Shown one piece after another: positions 31,874-33,153 of a DNA stretch of 64,000 nucleotides. Source of the DNA: Cyanobium sp. PCC 7001 (GTDB lineage: Bacteria > Cyanobacteriota > Cyanobacteriia > PCC-6307 > Cyanobiaceae); NCBI RefSeq assembly GCF_000155635.1, contig NZ_DS990556.1:1047051-1111050 (forward strand), read 5' to 3'. A model generated the notes under the pieces. That model made no database searches and was not told where the DNA came from. It saw only the letters and a list, made by a program, of their open reading frames with translations. The translations under genes and the position numbers were made by a program. How positions within the stretch are numbered: position 1 is the stretch's first letter; every line of letters starts with the position of its first letter.

Positions 31874-32452
31874 TCAGACCAGCAGGGTGAAGGATGTGAC
31901 CACCTGATGGAACAGCTCCTTCACCTTGTTCCAGCGGATCTCGTTGGTGCTGGCGGCGAAGGTGTAGAGGCGCCCCCGGTCCACCACCACCGTGGCCAGC
32001 TCGTGACGGTCCCGGTCCCCCAGGTGGACGGCGTACTCGAGGTCGTAGAAGGTGCGGCCGTCCTGGTCGCGCTCGTCGGCCTCCAGCAGCTCGGCCTGGC
32101 GGCCGCTCCCCTCCGGCGCGATCACAGCCCGCCGCAGCCGCTCACCCACGGCCACCGCGCTGCCCAGGTCGGAGAGATCCCCGTCGGTGCCCACCTCGGA
32201 GATCACCAGGCTGAGGGTTTCATCGCTGTTGATCAGGTCGTGAAACACCAGCTGGGGCCCCTCGCTCACCTGCACCCGCGTCCAGCCGGTGGGGTAGAGG
32301 AAGGCGAAACGGCCATCGGGATTCTGGTAGCGGTTCAGACCGGCGGCCGCGGCGCTGCAGCCCACCAGCACCAGCGCCAGCAGCAGGGCCACCGCCCCCC
32401 GCAGCAGGAAACGCGGCTGCAGGCGCGGCACCGGTGCGGAGTGGCTGGTCAT
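31874..32452 (-). CDS. Photosystem II lipoprotein CyanoP (PsbP-like)
   Basis: A 192-residue protein with a lipoprotein signal: basic start, hydrophobic LLRGAVALLLALVLVGC with the lipidated Cys at residue 32. The mature part is a PsbP domain: LNRYQNPDGRFAFLYPTGW, VFHDLINSDETLSLVISEV, GRTFYDLEYAVHL, LYTFAASTNEIRWNKVKELF. CyanoP sits on the lumenal side of thylakoids and helps early PSII assembly. Start ATG 32452; a longer frame to 32503 lacks signal character. It is divergent from recR, 101 bases apart. Confidence 0.9.
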   Translation of the reverse strand: MTSHSAPVPRLQPRFLLRGAVALLLALVLVGCSAAAAGLNRYQNPDGRFAFLYPTGWTRVQVSEGPQLVFHDLINSDETLSLVISEVGTDGDLSDLGSAVAVGERLRRAVIAPEGSGRQAELLEADERDQDGRTFYDLEYAVHLGDRDRHELATVVVDRGRLYTFAASTNEIRWNKVKELFHQVVTSFTLLV

Positions 32453-32525
32453 GGGGACGGGCAGGCAAGGCTGGGCCCATTCTGCGCGGCGCCCCCTCCG
32501 CACACGGCCCCTGGGATGCCCCGCC

Positions 32526-32531
32526 TAGAGT
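32526..32531 (+). promoter_or_regulatory. Probable -10 element for recR
   Basis: TAGAGT, 22 bases before the inferred CTG start of recR. It is the same hexamer, in the same CCTAGAGTCTG context, as the one before the ABC1 kinase gene. Confidence 0.4.
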
Positions 32532-32553
32532 CTGATCACCTGCGCTGGCCCCC

Positions 32554-33153
32554 CTGAGCGGTTTCACGCGCCCGCTGGCCCGGCTGATCGAGCAGTTCGA
32601 GAGACTGCCCGGGGTCGGTCCCCGCACCGCCCAGCGGCTCGCCCTGCATCTGCTGCGCCAGCCCGAGGAGCAGATCCGGGCCTTCGCCGATGCGCTGCTG
32701 GCCGCCCGCAGCCAGGTGGGGCAATGCCAGCGCTGTTTCCACCTCTCCGCCGAACCGCTCTGCGAGATCTGCCGCAACGAGGAACGGCGCAACGGCCAGC
32801 TCTGCGTGGTGGCCGATTCCCGCGATCTTCTGGCGATGGAGCGGACGCGGGAGTTCCGAGGGGGCTACCACGTGCTGGGCGGACTGATCTCCCCCATGGA
32901 CGGCATCGGTCCGGAACTGCTGCAGATCCAGCCCCTGGTGCAGCGGGTGGCGGCCGACGGCGTGGAGGAAGTGATTCTGGCGCTCACACCGAGCGTGGAG
33001 GGGGACACCACCAGCCTCTACCTGGCCCGTCTGCTCAAACCCTTCACCACCGTGAGCCGGATCGCCTACGGCCTGCCGGTGGGCAGTGAGCTGGAGTATG
33101 CCGATGAGGTGACCCTGGCCCGGGCCTTCGAAGGGCGGCGGCAGGTGGAATGA
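32554..33153 (+). CDS. recR: Recombination protein RecR, apparent CTG start
   Basis: A 199-residue RecR: the N-terminal helix-hairpin-helix ([20 protein letters not shown]), the zinc finger [16 protein letters not shown] (about 57-72) and the Toprim domain ([35 protein letters not shown]) are complete. It acts with RecO/RecF to load RecA at gaps. The reading frame has a stop at 32533 and then no ATG, GTG or TTG until GTG 32716, which would delete the whole HhH domain. CTG 32554, giving [11 protein letters not shown], is therefore the best start. It overlaps the TGA of a 13-codon ORF starting at ATG 32516 as CTGA. A sequencing error is an alternative. Confidence 0.85.

Follow-up and report, generated by a model that had tools for sequence, protein, structure and literature searches.

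Where does recR begin when its reading frame offers no ATG, GTG or TTG at the conserved N terminus? The question is raised by a stretch of 64,000 nucleotides (here referred to as the window) from a 2.83-Mb genome in two contigs, which by its recR is closest, among named relatives, to Cyanobium and Synechococcus. On the plus strand of the window, the recR frame is closed by a TGA stop at 32533 to 32535 and then reads TCA CCT GCG CTG GCC CCC CTG AGC GGT TTC ACG. The first ATG, GTG or TTG in this frame is a GTG at 32716 to 32718, which lies 54 codons 3' of the second of these CTG codons (32554 to 32556) and past the RecR_HhH domain, so that a start there would delete this domain. Read from CTG 32554, the coding sequence extends to 33153 (199 codons plus stop), and its product is RecR: it scores 255.6 bits with TIGR00615 (cut-off, 162.55), and the Pfam domains RecR_HhH (residues 9 to 51), RecR_ZnF, Toprim_4 and RecR_C are all above their cut-offs. 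When alignments to solved RecR structures were extended without gaps, the N terminus fell within about 1 residue of theirs, with query residue 6 matching chain residue 6 in 8a93_C and query residue 7 matching chain residue 6 in 2v1c_A. The other in-frame CTG, at 32545 to 32547, was rejected as a start because CTG occurs at that position in none of the other 105 loci that have CTG at the proposed start. Divergent from recR, a gene on the minus strand (31874 to 32503) looks by eye like a small lipoprotein, with an LVLVGC motif. In four Cyanobiaceae loci (L018, L019, L208 and L209), RecR is 18 to 28 residues longer than in the window; the extra length is an in-frame insertion near residue 135, before the conserved EVILALTPS part, with a variable sequence in which P, D, T and A are abundant.

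We compared the codon at the proposed start (codon 0) in 117 Cyanobiaceae genomes, comprising all 13 genomes of a genus sample and 104 more from a family sample. The family sample gave a recR match in 109 of 121 genomes, of which 4 overlapped with the genus set and another, G031, was dropped since its contig begins inside recR; the 12 genomes with no recR match were not counted. Codon 0 was CTG in 106 genomes, GTG in 5, TTG in 5 and ATG in 1. The interval from the preceding in-frame stop, or from the edge of the locus, to codon +6 is free of ATG, GTG and TTG in 78 of the 106 CTG loci, and in 4 of the 106 an in-frame stop lies just two codons before the CTG. Counting against this, some in-frame canonical codon is found upstream in 28 of the CTG loci, mostly far away; 67 of the 106 have less than 300 bases of upstream sequence, in which distant upstream codons are not visible. 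Leucine is encoded at codon 0 in 110 of 116 full-length rows, by CTG in 105 and by TTG in 5 and never by CTA, CTC, CTT or TTA; 43 of the rows with CTG at codon 0 are AT-rich, and among their 676 leucine codons in codons 1 to 109 just 53 are CTG. An internal leucine should vary, and the exchange of codon 0 only among CTG, GTG, TTG and ATG therefore points to start-codon behavior. The first-pass annotation had taken CTG 32554 as the start on the grounds that the frame, after the stop at 32533, lacked any ATG, GTG or TTG until past the HhH domain and that this CTG gave the expected N terminus. Its reading of the frame is correct, the N terminus agrees with the solved structures, and the 117 genomes strongly support the start. 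It had also suggested comparing this codon in relatives, where an ATG would have indicated a base error in the assembly; a single genome has one.

To measure the conservation of codon 0, we built a tree of the 116 recR sequences without their first three codons. Bases 1, 2 and 3 of codon 0 changed 4, 0 and 0 times on this tree, against a median of 26 changes at third positions and 24 to 51 at 18 fourfold-like sites. Relatives thus retain the weak codon more strictly than neutral sites. Avoidance of ATG in particular is, from these sequences, shown only weakly within Cyanobiaceae: ATG arose once at codon 0, and fourfold-like sites underwent a mean of 2.8 C-to-A changes each.

Other cyanobacteria were drawn from a phylum sample of 146 genomes, 144 of them with recR. 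We included all 59 genomes that belong to the same class but to other families, and among the 79 genomes with a recR match outside the class we examined 21, hand-picked for family spread. Outside Cyanobiaceae, the start was assigned to the most downstream canonical codon in positions -4 to +3, or else to an ACG at position 1 or 0, or else to position 2. In 50 of the 59 other-family genomes, positions -4 to +3 at the conserved N terminus contain no ATG, GTG or TTG, and the codon at position 2 is GTT in 26, ATT in 19, and GTC, CTG, GCT, AAT and ATA in one each. An ACG stands at position 1 in 21 of these 50, always 7 to 8 nt after a Shine-Dalgarno core (21/21), and it does so in all 18 genomes of the sample that carry the family label f7. 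The ACG is probably the better start candidate in such loci, with the GTT three bases on as the alternative. The nine canonical loci are spread over seven family labels (f10, f11, f12, f13, f18, f19 and f21), and their presence, together with that of the 11 among the 117 Cyanobiaceae, indicates that a canonical start is tolerated. Outside the class, the recR start is ATG, GTG or TTG in 21 of the 21 genomes examined. In the accepted taxonomy, the lineages of the Cyanobacteriota outside the class are non-photosynthetic, so a weak recR start seems to be characteristic of the oxygenic class. The lack of a canonical codon at the conserved N terminus, by which genes with near-cognate starts are recognized, is found at recR in the window, in most of the family and in most of the other families' genomes sampled from the class. 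As judged by sequence comparison, these data confirm that the weak CTG start is real and belongs to a class-wide pattern larger than the first-pass annotation had seen.

We then considered how these starts are paired with ribosome binding sites, defining a Shine-Dalgarno core as AGGA, GGAG or GAGG located 4 to 18 nt before the start. In a class set of 58 distinct loci (one duplicate start region left out), a core precedes 45 of 49 weak starts and 0 of 9 canonical ones (Fisher P = 6.7e-8, kinship inflating such P values). In a set of 38 named loci (L060 to L100 minus L061, L090 and L099), the corresponding counts are 30 of 31 and 0 of 7 (Fisher P = 6.3e-7, with kinship ignored), and two of these seven canonical loci, L081 and L091, which have TTG at -4 or -3, may be misassigned. 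The 80 named loci were used only for this set because many of them repeat genomes of the other sample. The pairing of weak recR starts with Shine-Dalgarno cores outside Cyanobiaceae is nearly complete, and the association of cores with weak codons while canonical ones go unpaired suggests that the strength of the start is tuned. Within Cyanobiaceae, a core is found in 8 of the 106 CTG loci, and the window has no AGGA, GGAG or GAGG at -18 to -4 of CTG 32554. In the consulted sections of Belinky et al. (PMC5622118), genome-wide Shine-Dalgarno compensation is described for GUG and UUG, and switches from AUG to CUG are put at 2 in 61,358 ancestral AUG starts.

As controls, we scored recO, ruvC, infC and lipA by whether a canonical codon lies in frame near the N terminus, a criterion that does not prove the start. 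Of 30 infC loci in Cyanobiaceae, 29 are readable and all 29 are canonical (27 ATG and 2 TTG), and the infC gene of the window's own genome starts with ATG. In the class sample, an in-frame canonical codon lies within 40 codons upstream of infC in 28 of 28 readable loci out of 30, the start position itself not being judged. For lipA, which adjoins recR, 39 loci were looked at; the search pattern found 27, one of which was masked, and an in-frame canonical codon is present upstream in all 26 readable loci. Both recO and ruvC have one at or near the N terminus in 30 of 30 Cyanobiaceae loci each. These recO and ruvC starts (L419 to L478) are often GTG or TTG, so several recombination genes seem to have starts weaker than ATG. 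For recA, 1 of 30 Cyanobiaceae loci lacks a canonical codon in the stretch viewed, the true start lying 5' of the matched part. A comparison of gene starts across the whole window with two relatives listed a few other frames lacking a nearby canonical codon; it is noisy, and yields no counts, because wrong-frame open reading frames in GC-rich DNA align too.

The exception was recF, which was read from tblastn matches. At the aligned start of 29 Cyanobiaceae recF loci (L390 to L418), we found ATT in 14 and ATC in 11 (together 25/29); of the rest, two have ATG at the aligned start, and in L396 and L408 an ATG lies one or five codons before it. Some in-frame canonical codon lies within 30 codons upstream in 6 of the 25 ATT or ATC loci. 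In the window's genome, recF (L402, G000:C1 near 1529217) has ATC at the aligned start and a GTG 22 codons upstream. In other cyanobacterial families of the class, the aligned start is ATG in 20 and GTG in 10 of 30 loci. Two of the three RecFOR genes are therefore near-cognate at the aligned start in Cyanobiaceae, and recO is not. With AUU or AUC in recF and a canonical codon in recO, gap repair may be throttled jointly at its RecF-RecR arm.

If only a few copies of RecR were needed, any start codon would serve and CTG might merely persist under relaxed selection. The frequent TTG and GTG starts of recO and ruvC in the same family fit this account, on the assumption that demand for these proteins is low. 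However, CTG is more conserved than the fourfold-like sites, not less; outside the family, moreover, Shine-Dalgarno cores go with the weak codons and not with the canonical ones, which suggests tuned strength. We consider relaxed selection an unlikely explanation.

A second account holds that the CTGAGCGGC stretch is kept as a DNA or RNA element, such as an operator, an early transcribed region or a ribosome contact, and that the weak start is a by-product. Codons 1 and 2 lend it some weight. In the 43 AT-rich rows, they are AGC in 34 and GGC in 27, far above usage elsewhere in the same rows (AGC in 33 of 200 serine codons and GGC in 49 of 269 glycine codons), and since AGC GGC is conserved at the DNA level even in AT-rich genomes, the constraint may lie partly on the sequence around the start and not on its weakness. 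Yet codon 0 is replaced by GTG, TTG or ATG in 11 of 117 genomes, as a start codon would be, and the other families lack the motif although 50 of 59 lack a canonical start. Nor was any consensus RNA pair found at -16 to +45 (RNAalifold, 98 unique rows). Such an element therefore seems a rather improbable source of the pattern.

The region upstream of the start bears on whether recR is instead coupled to a preceding reading frame. A -10-like promoter element, TAGAGT, lies at 32526 to 32531 on the plus strand, and a TANANT sequence occurs 16 to 24 nt before the CTG in 94 of the 106 CTG loci, compared with about 4.5 expected from shuffling; the commonest spacing is 21 to 22 nt. An A at -15 is conserved in 82% of the 106 loci. 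In the window this A is at 32538, about 7 bases 3' of TAGAGT, and from the -10 spacing and its conservation we infer a transcript beginning there, with a predicted 16-nt leader (32538 to 32553, plus strand) that would not contain the ATG at 32516. In L115, the sole locus of the 117 with ATG at codon 0, a TAGATT lies about 38 nt upstream, compared with the common 21 to 22, which corresponds to a longer leader.

That ATG opens a 13-codon open reading frame on the plus strand (32516 to 32557, with its TGA at 32555 to 32557), which overlaps the recR start as CTGA. In a coupling model, ribosomes would read this frame, stop at the TGA and restart at the overlapping CTG. The overlap is indeed present in the window. 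CTGA is found at the start in 104 of the 106 CTG loci, however, because codon 1 begins with A, and an in-frame ATG lies within 45 codons before that TGA in just 22 of the 104, at scattered distances; the nearest is 13 codons away in only 2 of the 106, the window and L151. In the nearest relative (L010, with a RecR 99% identical), the nearest ATG in that frame is 196 codons away. In the window, moreover, the 13-codon frame forms the 3' part of an open frame of 216 amino acids in that phase (31907 to 32557), and ATG 32516 lies 5' of the conserved -10-like box and hence upstream of the predicted transcript. We judge it to be a chance frame; an upstream frame that is both conserved and on the predicted recR transcript, as ATGA or CTGA coupling would demand, was not found here. 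The CTGA overlap that the first-pass annotation had likened to ATGA couplings thus exists as described, and the coupling itself, to which we assign a very slim probability, is unsupported. Its reservation that TAGAGT lies inside the small frame, and that the leader might exclude this frame, was well placed, given the conservation of the box and the predicted transcript. A sequence error, in which one C is missing from the six-C run at 32549 to 32554 so that ATG 32516 reads into recR, is allowed on paper by the relation of the two frames, but an assembly error at CTG 32554 is very unlikely, with a probability close to nil, because 106 of 117 genomes share the CTG behind differing leaders, and 78 of these 106 lack a canonical codon as far as the stop or edge.

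The explanation we favor, and hold to be probable on comparative and analogical grounds, is that recR has a selected near-cognate CUG start on a short leader that keeps RecR initiation low and is likely discriminated against by IF3. Translation of a short mRNA would begin at this CUG, placed by comparison, after a leader of some 16 nt, and would give an N terminus of fMet-Ser-Gly-Phe-Thr-Arg-Pro, fMet being presumed. Selection would keep the start weak, so that RecR initiation, and presumably RecR dosage, would remain low. Most other cyanobacteria of the class would reach a weak start by different codons, AUU, GUU and probably ACG, together with a Shine-Dalgarno core. Dosage would be limited at initiation by the mismatch between initiator tRNA and codon and by putative IF3 discrimination, as in infC of Escherichia coli and sigR of Streptomyces. 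By the figures in the consulted part of PMC11497404, which cites earlier work, CUG accounts for 0.024% of start codons in bacteria, and its output is 0.86% of that from AUG. The conserved weak start suggests that evolution has kept RecR production low or conditional. On the precedent of infC and sigR, the start codon most likely holds RecR output down, and IF3 would determine how far.

An extension that we put forward tentatively, as a possibility short of an even chance, is that the RecF-RecR arm of the oxygenic class is under an initiation-fidelity throttle, in which weaker IF3 discrimination would raise both proteins without new transcription. Here, recR would be near-cognate in most of the class with a varying codon (CUG, AUU, GUU and probably, in f7, ACG), and recF would join it with AUU or AUC in Cyanobiaceae. 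If this were true, translation fidelity would be coupled to recombinational repair, with light or oxidative stress as an example of a trigger. A case in which the start stays weak across a class while its codon changes, and which involves two partners of one repair pathway, offers a natural test of whether weakness itself is selected. In practical terms, RecR, and in picocyanobacteria also RecF, will likely be cut short, overextended or overlooked by gene finders limited to ATG, GTG and TTG. In the consulted part of one review (PMC5101192), three cyanobacterial strains are said to lack recR; a six-frame search finds recR in all 59 other-family genomes of the class, so in those strains the gene may have gone unannotated because its start is weak.

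We found no description of a non-AUG recR start in cyanobacteria, or of its class-wide pattern, in the literature searched, which covered few subscription papers. A study on bacterial genes preferring non-AUG starts, which PMC9845219 cites as arXiv 2008.10758, reportedly deals, to judge from its title, with start-codon preference by gene family. Proteogenomics in Nostoc 7120 identified ATT and ATA starts, and the main text of that report, in the portion consulted, does not mention recR (PMC8557916). Conserved non-canonical starts are well characterized in few bacterial genes, according to the consulted sections of PMC5472188. One described there is infC of Escherichia coli, which has an ATT start and is under IF3 autocontrol; as presented in those sections, its near-cognate start serves translational control, as we propose for recR. 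RecR is not a translation factor, unlike the infC product, so no autoregulation loop is expected, and, unlike in E. coli, infC itself is canonical in the sampled Cyanobiaceae and in the window's genome. The pcnB gene of E. coli starts with AUU. It resembles recR in having a near-cognate start in a gene unrelated to translation, a likeness drawn from its description.

The closest counterpart is sigR of Streptomyces, in which the start is GTC in 32 of 34 species and GTT in the other 2, with an extensive ribosome site; IF3 repression was demonstrated by experiment, and replacing the GTC leads to overproduction of SigR (PMC5472188, consulted sections). As far as that account goes, sigR is like recR in that the non-canonical start of one gene is conserved across a group, and its pairing of a weak codon and a strong ribosome site, which gene finders misannotate, fits the recR pattern outside Cyanobiaceae, where 45 of 49 weak starts have a core to offset them. 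Unlike sigR so described, recR in Cyanobiaceae is usually without one (98 of 106 CTG loci), and this low frequency counts against the favored explanation, under which enough RecR would have to be made without a core. On the same description, sigR is a regulatory gene of one genus whose control by IF3 is experimental, whereas recR is a repair gene in which the weak start is class-wide and the identity of the codon varies.
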